Shown piece by piece: positions 14,575 through 28,514 of a stretch of DNA of 64,000 nucleotides. The notes beneath the pieces are model-generated. The model searched no databases, was not told where the DNA came from, and saw nothing but the letters and a program-made list of their open reading frames with translations. The stretch's first letter is position 1. Each line of letters begins with the position of its first letter. The position numbers and the translations under genes are program-made. The DNA is from Phycisphaeraceae bacterium (lineage in GTDB: Bacteria > Planctomycetota > Phycisphaerae > Phycisphaerales > Zrk34): NCBI GenBank assembly GCA_028282805.1, contig JANQHD010000023.1, forward strand, positions 124,001 to 188,000. Direction: 5' to 3'.

Positions 14575-15480
14575 GTGGGTTTCTTCGATTGGATTTTCGG
14601 CGACGAGCAAACGCGGCTCGAGAAACGGGAGCAGGCGTACCGGCGGCTGGCCGACTGGCTCGACGTGCCGGTCGATGAGCTGCTCGACACGCCGCGCGAA
14701 TACACAGCGTTCACCATCCCCAAGCGGCGCGGCGGCGTGCGGCGGATCGATGCGCCGAACCCCGAGCTCAAAGCCCTGCAGCGCCGCATCCTGCGCCGCG
14801 TGCTCGCGAAGCTGAAGGCGCACCCCGCGGCCCACGGGTTCGAGAAGGGCCGATCGATCGTGACTAACGCCCTGCCGCACGCGAGCAAGCCGGTCGTGGT
14901 CCGCATGGACGTGCGCAACTTTTTCGCCAGCACGACCCGCAAGCGTGTGTTGAAATACTTCCGGGCGATCGGGTGGAGCAAGAAGGAAGCGGTCTTGCTG
15001 GCCGACCTTTGCACGCACAACGGGTCGTTGCCGCAGGGCGCGCCGACGAGCCCGCGGCTGTCGAACCTGGTGAACTACCTGCTCGACGCGCGCCTCGCGG
15101 GATTGATCGATGAGATGGGCGGCGAATACACGCGGTACGCCGACGACGTGACGGTGTCGTTCATCGACGACGGACCGGGCATCACGCCGCGCACGATCTA
15201 TGTGGTCGGCGCGGTCTTCTACCGGTTCGGGTACGCCGTGCACGGCAAGCGGAAGCGGAGCGTGCGCCGGGCGCACCAGCGGCAGCAGGTGACGGGGCTG
15301 GTGGTCAACGAGCTGCCGGGCCTGCCGCGCGAGGTGCGGCGGACGCTGCGGGCCGTGGAACACCGCCTACGCACGGGGCGCGAAGCGACGATGACGCGGG
15401 CCCAACTCGACGGGTGGCGGAGCTTGCAGTGGATGATCGTCAATCAGGTGAAAGAGGGGTTGGATCGCTCGGGGGTTTGA
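14575..15480 (+). CDS. Retron reverse transcriptase
   Basis: A 301-aa RNA-directed DNA polymerase that would copy part of the adjacent RNA into msDNA from a 2'-OH primer. Retron-specific marks are both present: the NAxxH motif (NALPH, 98-102) and the VTG motif (239-241). RT motifs are FTIPKRRGGVRRIDAP (46-61), the motif A aspartate in RMDVRNFF (D112), QGAPTSPRLSN (154-164) and the catalytic YADD (188-191). No extra catalytic domain is fused. The GTG at 14575 is followed by MGFFDWIFGDEQ; the ribosome-binding site is weak. The preceding 340 bp carry two tandem msr-msd-like RNAs. No effector gene (nuclease, ATPase, membrane toxin) lies beside it: upstream is a beta-helix enzyme and downstream a convergent nitroreductase. 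Known retrons are anti-phage systems. Confidence 0.92.
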   Translation: MGFFDWIFGDEQTRLEKREQAYRRLADWLDVPVDELLDTPREYTAFTIPKRRGGVRRIDAPNPELKALQRRILRRVLAKLKAHPAAHGFEKGRSIVTNALPHASKPVVVRMDVRNFFASTTRKRVLKYFRAIGWSKKEAVLLADLCTHNGSLPQGAPTSPRLSNLVNYLLDARLAGLIDEMGGEYTRYADDVTVSFIDDGPGITPRTIYVVGAVFYRFGYAVHGKRKRSVRRAHQRQQVTGLVVNELPGLPREVRRTLRAVEHRLRTGREATMTRAQLDGWRSLQWMIVNQVKEGLDRSGV

Positions 15481-19110: not shown

Positions 19111-20484
19111 ATGAAAGGCCCGATCGTGCGGACCATCGCGGTCATCAATCAGAAGGGCGGCTGCGGCAAGACCACGACCGCCATCAACCTCGCCGCCGCA
19201 CTGGCGGAGCTCGACCAGCGCACGCTGTTGGTCGACGTCGACCCGCAGGGCCACTGCGCCCTGGGCTTGGCCGTGCCCGAAAGCCAGATCGAATCGACCA
19301 TCGGCGAAGCGATGACCGCCACCGCGCCCGGCACGATCGACCCGGCGCAGCTGCTGTGGCAGGTGTCGCGCCGGTTGGACCTGATCCCTTCGACGGTCTC
19401 GCTGGCGCGCGTCGAGCGCCAGCTTTCCGACAAGCCCGACCGCGATGTGCGGCTGGCGAGCGTGCTGCGCCTGTACGAAGGCAAGTATGACTTTTGTTTG
19501 ATCGACTGCCCGCCGAACATCGGGCTGCTGACGTTCAACGCGCTGCGTGCGGCGGGCGAGGTGATCATCCCCGTCGAGGCCGGTTACTTCGCGCTGAAGG
19601 GGGCGCGCAAGCAGGCGGAACTGGTGCGCGTGCTGACCGAGCGCTGCAACCAGACGGTGGCGGTGCACGTGCTGCCGACGCTGTACGACGAGTCGGTGCC
19701 GCTCAGCCGCGACATCGCGCGCGACCTGAAACGCCACTTCGGCGACCGGGTGACGCCCGCGCCGATCCGCTACGACGTCAAGCTCAAAGAGGCGGCCAGC
19801 TACGGCCAGCCCATCAGCGAATACGACCCGAAGTCCACGGGCTACCGGGATTACGAAGCCCTTGCCAGGCACCTGAAAGCCAAGGTGCCCGCCGCCGCGG
19901 TCGGCCCGCTCGCCGGGGCTGAAGCGCCCGCGGCGCCCGGCGGCGGCAACGGCTCGACAACCACCGCCAAGCCCGACGGCAACGGCCGCGCACCCACCGA
20001 CGAACCGCCGCAGACCGACCGCGCCGCCGAACTGGTGCAGCGTGCCAAAGCGCTGGCGCAACGCACGCAGCGCATGGCCGACCGCCTCGCCACCGACCCC
20101 GAAGTCCAACGCGTCGAACGCCAGCAGGTGCTCGACCAGCGCCCCGCCGCCACCGCCGGCCAGCAGGAAGAGCTCGACCAAAAACTGGCGCGGTTCTACG
20201 GCGTGCAGGTCACCGGGCAGGGCACGCTATTCGTCCAACCCCAACGCAAGGCGCGGCGCGTTTCGATCGCCGGCGACTTCAACGGCTGGTCGCCCGTCGC
20301 CACCCCCATGCAACTCAACCCCAAGCTCGGCGTGTGGGAGGCGTGCGTCACCCTGCCGCCCGGCCGGTACCAGTACCGCATCGTCGTCGACGACGAATGG
20401 ATCACCGACCCGCACAACACGATCACCGAGACCAACCCGTTCGGCCAGATGAACAACATCGTCGAAGTCACCACGCACCGCTAA
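19111..20484 (+). CDS. ParA/MinD-type ATPase fused to a C-terminal AMPK/CBM48-like domain
   Basis: A 457-aa protein with three parts. Residues 1-250 are a ParA-family ATPase with the deviant Walker A KGGCGKTT (15-22), a DVDPQGH switch and LIDCPPNIGLLT. Residues about 255-370 are a low-complexity linker and a charged helical stretch. Residues about 370-455 form an E-set domain like the glycogen-binding module of AMPK beta subunits, with RRVSIAGDFNGWSP (382-395) and PPGRYQYRIVVDDEW. ParA proteins position DNA or complexes on the nucleoid or membrane; a carbohydrate-binding tail is unusual. The next gene starts 7 bp later, so they form an operon. It could instead be a positioning factor for an envelope or storage structure. 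Confidence 0.85.
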   Translation: MKGPIVRTIAVINQKGGCGKTTTAINLAAALAELDQRTLLVDVDPQGHCALGLAVPESQIESTIGEAMTATAPGTIDPAQLLWQVSRRLDLIPSTVSLARVERQLSDKPDRDVRLASVLRLYEGKYDFCLIDCPPNIGLLTFNALRAAGEVIIPVEAGYFALKGARKQAELVRVLTERCNQTVAVHVLPTLYDESVPLSRDIARDLKRHFGDRVTPAPIRYDVKLKEAASYGQPISEYDPKSTGYRDYEALARHLKAKVPAAAVGPLAGAEAPAAPGGGNGSTTTAKPDGNGRAPTDEPPQTDRAAELVQRAKALAQRTQRMADRLATDPEVQRVERQQVLDQRPAATAGQQEELDQKLARFYGVQVTGQGTLFVQPQRKARRVSIAGDFNGWSPVATPMQLNPKLGVWEACVTLPPGRYQYRIVVDDEWITDPHNTITETNPFGQMNNIVEVTTHR

Positions 20485-20491
20485 GCATACG

Positions 20492-21883
20492 ATGGACGAC
20501 CCACGCACCACCGAAGTCTTCGAGCAGCTGGCCGCGCTGTACCTGACCGGCACCGAAGACGCCGGCCCGCCCGCCGCGGGCGCGCCCCCGCTGCGCCTGG
20601 CCGGCGACGCCGCCGAGGTCAACGCCGAGGCGGTCGAAGCCTTCGACCCGATCGACGCGCCGCCCACCGCCGCGGAGGTCGGCTCGGTCGAGGGCGTGCT
20701 CATCGGCCACCTGCCCGGCTTCGCCAACCTGTGGCTCGGCCAGTACGCCCACCGACTGGCGCGGGCGCGCGGCCCGGTCGCGGTGGCCAACATCCACGAA
20801 CATGCCATCGAACTCGAGCTGTACACCCAGCCGGCCGACGACGCGCTGCTGCGCGACATGGTCGACGCACCGCACTGGCCGATCGAGCGCATCATGGCGA
20901 TGCTCGCCCAACGCGCCGGCGCGCTGCTGGTGCGGCTGCCCGCCGCGCCCTGCCCGACCAGCAAGGCCCTGGCCCACCGCCTCGACGCGTGGACGCTGTT
21001 GTCCGGCAGTGACGAGGCCGCGGTGATCGGCGGCTACCGCCTGCTCAAGGGCTTGATCGAGGGCCGACCCACCGGCACGGTGTTGCCGCGCGTGCGGTTG
21101 GTGGTGTGCGGCTGCGACCGCCTCGCCGCCGAGCACGCCGCCGAACGCCTGCACCGCACCGCCGCCGAGTTCCTGCGCATCACCCCCACCCTCGCCGGCA
21201 CCCAGCAGAAGATGGAGCCCGTGCGCAAGAAACGCCTCGGCAACTTCAACGTGCCCAACCCGTGGGCCTTCCTCAGCGAGATGGTGCACGACGTGACAAA
21301 CGAAGAATCCGGAGTCACGGAACAGCCGGCGCTCGAACTGGACGAGGGCGACCTGCTCGTCGACGAAGAGCTCGCCGCGCTCGACGCGTATGAAGACGTC
21401 GAGCCGTTGGAACCCGGGATCACTTCTGAACAAACGGATGCGGAACCCGAACGCGAATCTGAGATTCCGCATTCCGCATTCCGCATTCCGGATTCATTGG
21501 CATCGCTGGTGGAATACGTAGAGGGATTGGCCGCGCTGGCAGCGCGTTGTCCGTCGCACGAGTCGGTCGAGTTGGCGATCGACCCGTCCGGCGGGCTGCA
21601 CCTGTTGGCGCGGACCGAAGACGACCCGCGGGCCACGCTGGCCGCGGCTTTCGATACCCGCTCGTGGGCGATCGAGCACGCCAAGCTGCTCGCCCTGACC
21701 GTGAGCGACCGCGCCCTCGACGTGGCGCGCGAGCCGGTGGTGCACCTGTTCACCGACCAGCCGAAATTGTTCGGCGACCTCGCCCACCGCGGCACGCCCG
21801 ACACCCGCCCGATCAAGCTGCACGCTCTGCTGCCGGTCACCGTGGGCGATCAAACGACCTGGTCGCACGCCGAGTTGAACTGA
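20492..21883 (+). CDS. Conserved hypothetical partner of the ParA-CBM protein
   Basis: A 463-aa soluble protein with no recognised domain. The first 270 residues look folded (GVLIGHLPGFANLWLGQYA through VRLVVCGCDRL), with hydrophobic strands reminiscent of a P-loop-type or Rossmann-like fold but no Walker motif. The middle is acidic. Residues near 325-335 read EIPHSAFRIP and derive from an in-frame heptamer repeat. The C-terminal 120 residues (SLASLVEYVEGLAALAARCP to the end) form a second likely domain. Only 7 bp separate it from the ParA fusion gene, so the two very likely work together. The function is unknown. Confidence 0.65.
   Translation: MDDPRTTEVFEQLAALYLTGTEDAGPPAAGAPPLRLAGDAAEVNAEAVEAFDPIDAPPTAAEVGSVEGVLIGHLPGFANLWLGQYAHRLARARGPVAVANIHEHAIELELYTQPADDALLRDMVDAPHWPIERIMAMLAQRAGALLVRLPAAPCPTSKALAHRLDAWTLLSGSDEAAVIGGYRLLKGLIEGRPTGTVLPRVRLVVCGCDRLAAEHAAERLHRTAAEFLRITPTLAGTQQKMEPVRKKRLGNFNVPNPWAFLSEMVHDVTNEESGVTEQPALELDEGDLLVDEELAALDAYEDVEPLEPGITSEQTDAEPERESEIPHSAFRIPDSLASLVEYVEGLAALAARCPSHESVELAIDPSGGLHLLARTEDDPRATLAAAFDTRSWAIEHAKLLALTVSDRALDVAREPVVHLFTDQPKLFGDLAHRGTPDTRPIKLHALLPVTVGDQTTWSHAELN
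21464..21491 (+). repeat. ATTCCGC heptamer repeat inside the ParA partner gene
   Basis: Four tandem copies of ATTCCGC (the last ends ATTCCGG) lie in frame and encode IPHSAFRIP. They interrupt what otherwise looks like a linker between two domains. Confidence 0.8.
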
Positions 21884-25781: not shown

Positions 25782-28514
25782 TTAGCCGCGACCCGCAGGG
25801 GAGCGCTTCCGCTTTGCGACCATCAGTGCGCCGAGCGCGAGCAACGGCAGCGCGCCCGGCTCGGGCACGCTCGCGGGGGTGGCGGCGATTGATTGGCCGA
25901 AGCGCAAACCGACCGCGTCGAGGTCGGCCAACGTCACTTGACCGTCGTAGTTGAAGTCGCCCTGCTGCCACGTCGCGCCGAGCGTGCCGAAGTGCGTGCC
26001 CACCGCGTCGAGGTCGGCCAGCGTGACCGCGCCGTCGGCGTTGGCGTCGCCCTTGAGCGTGGCGAACAGCCGTACGCGGTCGGGCAGCGTGTCGGCGTCG
26101 GCGCCGTCCTCGTACAGCACGGCCAGCGCGTGGTCGGCGTCGATCTCGGCGCCGGTGACGGCCGCGTGGTCGAACGTGCCGACGATCGTCGCAGATTCGA
26201 GCACGACGAAGCCGTCGCCGGGCAGCACGGCAAGCTCCTGATCGATCTCGAGCCCCCCGCCAAGCGACGCGGTATTAGTCACCAATAACCGATCGTGTGA
26301 CTCGGTGGTGGCGAGGTCGATCCGAAGCACGGAACCGAGCTGCAGCGTGAGGTTGGTTACGTTTAACGTGTCTGCGCGGTAGGTCATCTCGCCGCCGGTC
26401 AGGGCCACGCCCGGGTTAGCGAAGAGCTGCCCGACCTCTGTCGCCGTGAGTGCGGTGTCGTAAATCTGCGCGTCGTCGATGTACCCTACGAAGTTTCGGC
26501 CGCTGTAGCCGAGGAGGCTGTTGCCAAAAGTCATTTCCCGACCGACGGGCGTGTTGGGCAAGCCGCCGGGCAGGCTGCTGTCGGGGTCCATGACCTGCAA
26601 GACGCCGTCGAGATAGAGATCAATATCGCGGGTCGTGTCGCCATCATCCATCACGAGCGCGACGTGGTGCCATAGCCCGTCTAACGTGGTGCCGGTTTCC
26701 CACCGCGCAAAACTGCCCCCGATTTCCAGGCGCAGCTTGTGCCCGATGGTCTTGTCGAACCGCAGGTCGAACCGCTCGCTGTTATCGTTTTCACCGAAGC
26801 TGAACAGCGTGGGGGCGCCGTCGGTGTTGGCCGCCAGGTATCCTTTGAACCACAGGCTGATGGTTCGCGCATCGTCGCCACCGGGCCCGCCATAGTTGTG
26901 GCTCGAGACCTCGCCTTGATCGTTGGCTTGTGCGTCGGCGAAGTGCAGCGAGCCCGCGCCGGCGACTTTGTGGACCACGTCCATGGTCGCCGCGTTGCGT
27001 CTACGGAGGCTGAGCTGATTGTTCGCCAGGTCATTGGTGGAGTAATCAAACGGGAAGTGGTTGACCAGTTGCGGGCCGGCGCCCCAGATGTCCGCGTCAC
27101 CGACCTGAACCACCGCACCGGCTTGAGCCACCAGGCTGCCCGTCACGCGTTCGACGCCCACAAAAGTTACGCCGTCGGGAACCGTCAAGCCGTCCAATAC
27201 CTCGACCGCGCGCAGCACGCCCCCCATCAAGTTGATGGCTCCGTCTTCGTGATCGAGCCGGTCGATCAACATCGTCCCCCCGGGCATCAAGTCCACCACC
27301 CCACCGGGATGCAGCGTGAGTCGGCCCTCCAGCGTGTTGTAAGTGCTTCCGGCGCCGACAACCAAGCGGTCGTGAATGTTCAGGCCGCCGACGAGCTGCG
27401 AACCCTGTCCCGCGACCGTCGCCGTCGCCTGGTACGTGTGGCCGGTGCTGTGTCCGACGGAGCCGCCGACCGTCGCGAGCTTACCGCCGTCGAGCACCCG
27501 GATTTCCGACACGCCCATGAAAGCGGTCCCCAACCCCTCCTCGCTTAGCAGCATTGAACCCGCGCCTGTGATGATCAGCTCGGAGCGACCCGTGGTTGTC
27601 TGCGGGGTATCCATCTCGACGCCGCTGCTGGGCGCAAAGACGGGTACTTCATAACCGCTGACGTCGACACTTTCGCAAAACACCTGGCCGCCGTTCTCGA
27701 CCGTCGCCGTCGCCACGCCCTCAAGCCCCAGCTCCAGCCGCCTTGTCCGCACGATCGTACCCGTGTCCATGACGTTCAACGCCGCGGTGCTGCCGGCGCT
27801 TTGTGCCAGTTTAAGATCAAACAGCTTGGTGGTCCCGCCCTGCTGGGCATTGATGACGACGTCATTCAACTCGATGGGGTGATAACGACCTTGCAGGTGG
27901 CCGCCGTTGAGCTCGATCGTGTGATTCGCAGACGCAAAGGGGCCGGCGTTGTCCACGTCGAGCGTGCCTCCCGCGGGCAAGATAACCCGGTCGAATCCGC
28001 TCAGCTGTGACCCCGAGTAAAGTTGAAGCTTGCCTTGTAAGACGCTCAGGTCACCGGTGGCCTGCACCGCCCCACGCATCGTCACGGTGCCCTCACCAGA
28101 CTTGACCAAACCATCGCTGCTCAGAACATCAACCCAAATTGTGTGTGTCGTTTCATGTGCAAACAGTTCGGCCGAGGAGACGAGGGTAAGGCTCGAGTCC
28201 ATGCCGGTCGGTAACAAGTCAACCGTTCGGTCGCTTTCGAATCGAACCTGCTGCACGACGACCGCGGCATCAACGTCGACCCGCACCGGCACGATCAGGT
28301 TGTAAGGAAAGGTCGCCGTCGCTAATGGGCCGTTCGGCACGTCCGGATTCGTATCCCAGTTCACCGAGGTCGTCCAATCACCGTCGCCTTGCGTTTCCCA
28401 CCTGGCCGAGACATCCGCGGCCCAGGCGGTTGGGTTCGAACTCCACATCACCAATGTCGCTGCACACAACGCAGCGATACCTCGCAAAGTCGCCTCTCGC
28501 GAATGATCCGTCAC
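25782..28514 (-). CDS. Secreted PEP-CTERM protein with LamG-like and dockerin-like domains
   Basis: A 910-aa extracellular protein. A signal peptide (GIAALCAATLVMWSSNPTAWA) is followed by a long beta-rich region with autotransporter-like strand repeats (GKLQLYSGSQL, GGTLDVDNAG). A LamG/concanavalin-like domain spans about residues 490-690 (ISLWFKGYLA, WHHVALVMDD, DLYLDGVLQ). Two calcium-binding dockerin-type repeats follow (GDANADGAVTLADLDAVGTH and GDFNYDGQVTLADLDAVGLR), then the sorting signal VPEPGALPLLALGALMV and a basic tail KRKR. PEP-CTERM proteins are processed by an exosortase, not seen here. Start is GTG 28514 with GGAGG 9-10 nt upstream. The ligand is unknown. Confidence 0.85.
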   Translation of the reverse strand: MTDHSREATLRGIAALCAATLVMWSSNPTAWAADVSARWETQGDGDWTTSVNWDTNPDVPNGPLATATFPYNLIVPVRVDVDAAVVVQQVRFESDRTVDLLPTGMDSSLTLVSSAELFAHETTHTIWVDVLSSDGLVKSGEGTVTMRGAVQATGDLSVLQGKLQLYSGSQLSGFDRVILPAGGTLDVDNAGPFASANHTIELNGGHLQGRYHPIELNDVVINAQQGGTTKLFDLKLAQSAGSTAALNVMDTGTIVRTRRLELGLEGVATATVENGGQVFCESVDVSGYEVPVFAPSSGVEMDTPQTTTGRSELIITGAGSMLLSEEGLGTAFMGVSEIRVLDGGKLATVGGSVGHSTGHTYQATATVAGQGSQLVGGLNIHDRLVVGAGSTYNTLEGRLTLHPGGVVDLMPGGTMLIDRLDHEDGAINLMGGVLRAVEVLDGLTVPDGVTFVGVERVTGSLVAQAGAVVQVGDADIWGAGPQLVNHFPFDYSTNDLANNQLSLRRRNAATMDVVHKVAGAGSLHFADAQANDQGEVSSHNYGGPGGDDARTISLWFKGYLAANTDGAPTLFSFGENDNSERFDLRFDKTIGHKLRLEIGGSFARWETGTTLDGLWHHVALVMDDGDTTRDIDLYLDGVLQVMDPDSSLPGGLPNTPVGREMTFGNSLLGYSGRNFVGYIDDAQIYDTALTATEVGQLFANPGVALTGGEMTYRADTLNVTNLTLQLGSVLRIDLATTESHDRLLVTNTASLGGGLEIDQELAVLPGDGFVVLESATIVGTFDHAAVTGAEIDADHALAVLYEDGADADTLPDRVRLFATLKGDANADGAVTLADLDAVGTHFGTLGATWQQGDFNYDGQVTLADLDAVGLRFGQSIAATPASVPEPGALPLLALGALMVAKRKRSPAGRG

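Follow-up and report, generated by a model that had tools for sequence, protein, structure and literature searches.

A ParA-type ATPase fused to an AMPK-type carbohydrate-binding module in Phycisphaerae, often followed by a degenerate FlhG-like gene

The window, a 64,000-nt stretch of DNA, comes from a Phycisphaeraceae genome that is 99.8% complete (G000). It contains a gene that joins a ParA-type ATPase to an AMPK-type carbohydrate-binding module (CBM), and a second ATPase-like gene that begins 8 bases past the stop codon of the first. The features of this locus are the following:

19111-20484, + strand: ParA and AMPK1_CBM fusion open reading frame (ORF), ATG to stop, 457 aa
19126..19884, + strand: ParA/Soj-type ATPase domain, aa 6-258 (Pfam, PDB, VIA-align)
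19885..20199, + strand: linker of variable length, aa 259-363, including a helix predicted at aa 303-328 (RAAEL...)
20200..20481, + strand: AMPK1_CBM/CBM48 E-set domain, aa 364-457 (PF16561, 2.2e-15; AMPK beta 2f15, 5.3e-9)
20492-21883, + strand: degenerate FlhG/FleN-like ATPase without Walker A (profile, Foldseek)

Elsewhere in the window, a stand-alone reverse transcriptase of 301 aa is encoded at 14575-15480 (+ strand; RT_XIII is the top PADLOC model at 5e-78, ahead of further retron-type RT models). A large surface-type protein lies at 25782-28514 (- strand), and its C-terminal end resembles, by eye, a PEP-CTERM signal.

The initial annotation had described a ParA ATPase (KGGCGKTT) joined through a linker to an AMPK/CBM48-like tail, and this architecture was borne out at every level of analysis: ORF, Pfam, PDB and AlphaFold2. 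Scanning Pfam with hmmscan placed AAA_31 at aa 7-183 (6.4e-46) and AMPK1_CBM at aa 379-455 (2.2e-15, 57.0 bits against a cut-off of 26.8), with CBM_48 also matching the tail (2.5e-9). Among solved structures, the ATPase domain matched ParA (8ray, 5.9e-50) and TtSoj (1wcv, 1.6e-38), and the best phmmer matches of aa 355-457 were AMPK beta-2 (2f15, 5.3e-9) and beta-1 (1z0n, 6.8e-9). The AlphaFold2 model has a mean pLDDT of 86. Its ParA part lies mostly above 88 from aa 21 onward (76-78 for aa 1-20), the CBM is modelled at 94 or higher over aa 361-450, and aa 273-302 of the linker fall below 50. Soj chains aligned with the model at Z 34-37 in VIA-align; the 50 rows listed were all ParA folds and included no CBM, so this comparison barely tests the tail. 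The ORF, the Pfam and PDB matches and the AlphaFold2 model therefore indicate that the fusion is neither a chance match nor a frame artefact, and we regard it as confirmed.

The fusion is not limited to one assembly, a concern raised by the initial annotation. Among the best 80 of 547 relatives from a tblastn-confirmed scan of genome contigs, 79 carry both parts in one ORF, the remaining one (L062) being severed at a contig end. These 80 are overwhelmingly from Phycisphaerae/Planctomycetota, and one, on a contig labelled as a ‘Limnohabitans’ MAG (L085), has probably been mis-binned. A survey of 148 genomes of the window’s class (completeness at least 90%) recovered the fusion in 93, a tail-less orthologue in 6 and neither in 49. 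Beyond the class, G058 alone among 272 genomes carried it (phylum sample of 294, weak matches checked in part). We then placed 124 ParA domains on a maximum-likelihood tree: the 93 class fusions, the G058 fusion, the 6 tail-less orthologues and 24 canonical ParAs. One branch (support 100/99) splits the canonical ParAs from all fusions and tail-less orthologues, and the latter fall at three places within the fusion side. From this topology, the joining of ParA and CBM is a single event, followed by three losses of the tail, within this sampling.

The ATPase half retains the motifs of its family. The deviant Walker A (KGGCGKTT, aa 15-22) is present in 50/50 proteins of fusion alignment A1, all of which also match AMPK1_CBM at E<=1e-3. 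Across 92 distinct fusion proteins, the Walker A, A' and B residues are intact throughout and K15, G16, G17, G19, K20, T21, T22, D42, D44 and D132 are invariant; the signature lysine, Walker A' and Walker B place the family in the Soj branch of ParA/MinD (A/D) ATPases. The linker varies from 17 to 178 aa in the same 92 proteins. Position 226 is K or R in all of them and lies next to the C-terminal arginine position of Soj, presumably the residue that Soj uses for DNA. C-terminal basic residues of the domain are mostly kept across relatives; the window copy has Ser and Pro where most relatives have R195 and K197, making nucleoid binding by this copy less sure. The fusion ATPase may form ATP-dependent dimers and bind the nucleoid.

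The tail shows a largely preserved sugar pocket. W393, R423, W430, F444 and N448 align with W100, K126, W133, L146 and N150 of rat AMPK beta-1; of these AMPK residues, the tryptophans, the lysine and the asparagine touch cyclodextrin or are required for glycogen binding. Among the 92 distinct proteins, W393 is kept in 91, R or K at 423 in 89, W430 in 83, G445 in 88 and N448 in 79, and position 444, equivalent to L146 of AMPK, is aromatic in 76 (F in 53, Y in 23). The two tryptophans and the basic residue, which rank among the best-kept tail positions, occur together in 83 proteins, and in 79 together with the asparagine. The initial annotation had made its reading depend on aromatic sugar-binding residues in the tail, and W393 and W430 supply them in most members. 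Position 446, equivalent to AMPK T148, is Glu or Asp in 72/92. In rat AMPK beta-1, W100, K126, W133, L146 and T148 are described as touching the sugar, their mutants binding less glycogen (PMC2642990). According to a second source, W100G and K126Q abolish glycogen binding, W133L weakens it and T148D inhibits it (PMC6274970). Read against these mutants, the residue counts therefore describe a pocket that is mostly, not wholly, AMPK-like. Binding of alpha-glucan by the tail is plausible; the acidic residue at the T148 position resembles T148D and is an unfavourable sign.

No Pfam or NCBIfam family names the downstream partner (20492-21883), which the initial annotation did not mention. The profile of its family (A2) matched FlhG (4rz2, 4e-10) and FleN (5j1j, 6e-8) in the PDB, and its model matched FlhG in Foldseek (4rz2, 3.1e-6). 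An additional alpha/beta domain follows at its C-terminus (aa 339-461), and we consider the protein FlhG-like rather than FlhG because Walker A occurs in 0/44 family members. Close to the N-terminus, 36/44 partners share a short motif resembling LADLF, versus 3/50 fusions. The partner adjoins 46/93 fusions and 5/6 tail-less orthologues, which shows that the tail is unnecessary for its persistence. It was present at 49/81 loci read gene by gene; some of the other 32 end at a contig edge, and no conserved neighbour takes its place at these 32. We infer that the partner and the fusion protein may be in contact. In G058, a 328-aa gene after the fusion (locus L105) appears FlhG-like by eye; we do not claim it as such because searches gave no Pfam match at E<=0.1, no relevant PDB match at E<=1 and no partner-profile match at E<=1e-2.

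An FlhG-like neighbour raises the possibility of flagellar or polar placement, in which ParA and the pseudo-FlhG would help to fix the number or site of flagella, with the CBM feeding glucan (energy) status into that decision in the manner of animal AMPK. Indeed, FlhA is found in 84/93 fusion genomes compared with 27/49 genomes without any orthologue (Fisher 3.2e-6). Within-family permutation on an earlier set gave p 0.0006, with families f96 and f98 alone carrying the signal. Flagellar genes also occur after the fusion, both in the window (FliD and FliS) and at L083:3967-11927 (+ strand), where the fusion precedes genes for a TPR protein, FlgN, a sensor kinase, an NtrC-type regulator, FlgB, FlgC and FliF (Pfam identified FlgN and FlgC, and phmmer FlgB and FliF). 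However, flagellar structural genes adjoin the fusion at only 2/81 loci, and we dropped a flagellar role inferred from gene neighbourhood for this reason. Moreover, 9/93 fusion genomes lack FlhA, families f101, f106 and f109 are flagellated without the fusion, and G000 has a separate FlhG-like gene of its own adjoining FlhA. We therefore rate flagellar placement as somewhat unlikely.

The distribution of glucan enzymes bears on the tail. Fusion presence was unassociated with these enzymes when fusion genomes were compared with genomes having neither fusion nor orthologue: any glucan synthase occurs in 41/93 versus 27/49, GT3 synthase in 35/93 versus 25/49, branching enzyme in 39/93 versus 27/49 and phosphorylase in 68/93 versus 40/49. 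Synthase, branching enzyme and phosphorylase are all missing in 7/93 fusion genomes. A glycogen role argued from gene co-occurrence was accordingly dropped, and no glycogen genes were recognised beside the fusion among neighbours that were mostly similarity-clustered and in few cases Pfam-scanned. In contrast, the state of the pocket follows the enzymes: a synthase or phosphorylase is encoded in 79/88 genomes with both tryptophans versus 2/11 in which a tryptophan or the tail is lost (Fisher 1.3e-6, over 93 fusions and 6 tail-less orthologues; a post hoc test on few independent events). Within-family permutations, the sole phylogeny correction of our genome counts, gave p 0.0056 on an earlier set of 94; the earlier counts had 88 genomes as fusions and 11 as ‘partial or tail-less’, five of the latter (G392, G313, G308, G302 and G294) in fact bearing the CBM. 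The correlation stems mainly from two clades (f4 and f2). On the tree, degraded tails form few clades, of which f4 and the pair G417 and G419 are consistent with glucan enzymes having been lost. The exceptions are G209 and G095, which run counter to the trend and also lack a partner match.

G000 itself carries an alpha-glucan phosphorylase (TIGR02094, 888 bits) and a eukaryote-type GT3 glycogen synthase (G000:C2:63469-65322; L250:3560-5425, - strand). Across the 148 class genomes, bacterial GlgA is nearly absent (3) and GlgE rare (6), and eukaryote-type GT3 is common (61); GT3 synthases are already described for the PVC group (PMC11046441). A second CBM48-bearing frame, of 193 aa, lies on contig C20 of G000 (L005:1396-1974, - strand), ~13 kb from the alpha-glucan phosphorylase gene.

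The proposal of the initial annotation that the ATPase is tied to alpha-glucan was thus upheld in part: the stacking tryptophans, basic residue and asparagine are mostly kept and pocket decay accompanies missing synthase or phosphorylase, but the T148 position is mostly acidic and fusion presence does not track glycogen enzymes. These last two observations are those favouring a CBM that serves as a protein-protein adaptor, AMPK-like in fold and binding no sugar, that docks, for example, a protein cargo or partner. Such an adaptor appears improbable given the conservation of both tryptophans and the basic residue, the decay of the pocket mostly where glucan enzymes are absent, and the retention of the partner by tail-less orthologues. 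A supernumerary partition ParA of chromosome or plasmid type, with the tail as a passenger, is suggested by Soj being the nearest solved relatives but is very improbable: those class genomes for which the tree includes a second copy (e.g., G000, G185, G261, G142 and G406) have a separate canonical ParA in the distinct clade, no Pfam ParB was found among the minority of neighbours scanned, and the tail has been maintained since its single origin.

We favour, with a probability of about 0.38, a nucleoid-type positioning ATPase that holds or senses alpha-1,4-glucan through its AMPK-type CBM and acts with a pseudo-FlhG partner. ATP-bound dimers of the fusion would settle on the nucleoid, as in Soj, and the flexible linker would allow the CBM to hold or sense alpha-1,4-glucan, either glycogen-like particles or glucan-carrying enzymes. 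The glucan store could thereby be spread or anchored within the cell, and the pseudo-FlhG, lacking the usual ATP-binding motif, would act as its partner, in regulation or docking, in roughly half of the genomes. Positioning by the fusion ATPase is itself presumptive. A bacterial alpha-glucan partition system, in which the ParA would bind glycogen particles through the module and space or segregate them over the nucleoid with the pseudo-FlhG as co-factor, we find doubtful. The ATPase half tracks motility and the pseudo-FlhG, and tail integrity tracks glucan enzymes, every such correlation (FlhA, glucan enzymes) resting on few independent events. A positioning ATPase that holds or senses glucan accommodates both trends, with glucan as cargo or signal.

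ParA/MinD ATPases position chromosomes, carboxysomes, chemotaxis arrays and flagella, usually via an adaptor protein. AMPK is an animal energy sensor that senses glycogen through its CBM. Here, the ATPase itself seems to supply the adaptor, in the form of a carbohydrate module that has been retained class-wide since one origin; this hints at an undescribed link between sugar polymers and cell organisation. It would represent bacterial use of the module by which AMPK senses glycogen, and would offer a direct way to learn whether glycogen stores are positioned or counted by bacteria, or signalled to motility. No paper on a ParA-AMPK1_CBM fusion was found among the matches listed in searches of titles and abstract openings of the open-licence literature. 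A study of ParA/MinD cargos in one bacterium returned no carbohydrate, glycogen or planctomycetes in a term search of its main text (PMC10241942).

Compared with known systems, the fusion shares the ATPase fold and motifs of Soj/ParA (TtSoj 1wcv, HpSoj 6iub; 35-39% identity over ~250 aa when aligned by structure) but differs in its C-terminal AMPK-type CBM, its pseudo-FlhG neighbour and H48 after DPQ, invariant in 92/92, and its ATPases form a clade apart from canonical ParA. The partner resembles FlhG/FleN in profile and fold but lacks Walker A (44/44) and has the extra C-terminal domain. The tail shares with the AMPK beta CBM (PF16561) the fold family, motif order and the W100, K/R126, W133 and N150 positions, yet it is attached to ParA rather than to a kinase complex and is mostly Glu or Asp at the T148 position. 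The general plan of one ParA/MinD ATPase per cargo, exemplified by McdA/McdB carboxysome positioning (PMC10241942), is the likeness to such cargo systems. Unlike in those systems, no ParB- or McdB-like partner was recognised among the neighbours scanned; the fusion's neighbour is a dead ATPase, and the fusion ATPase itself bears the carbohydrate-type module.
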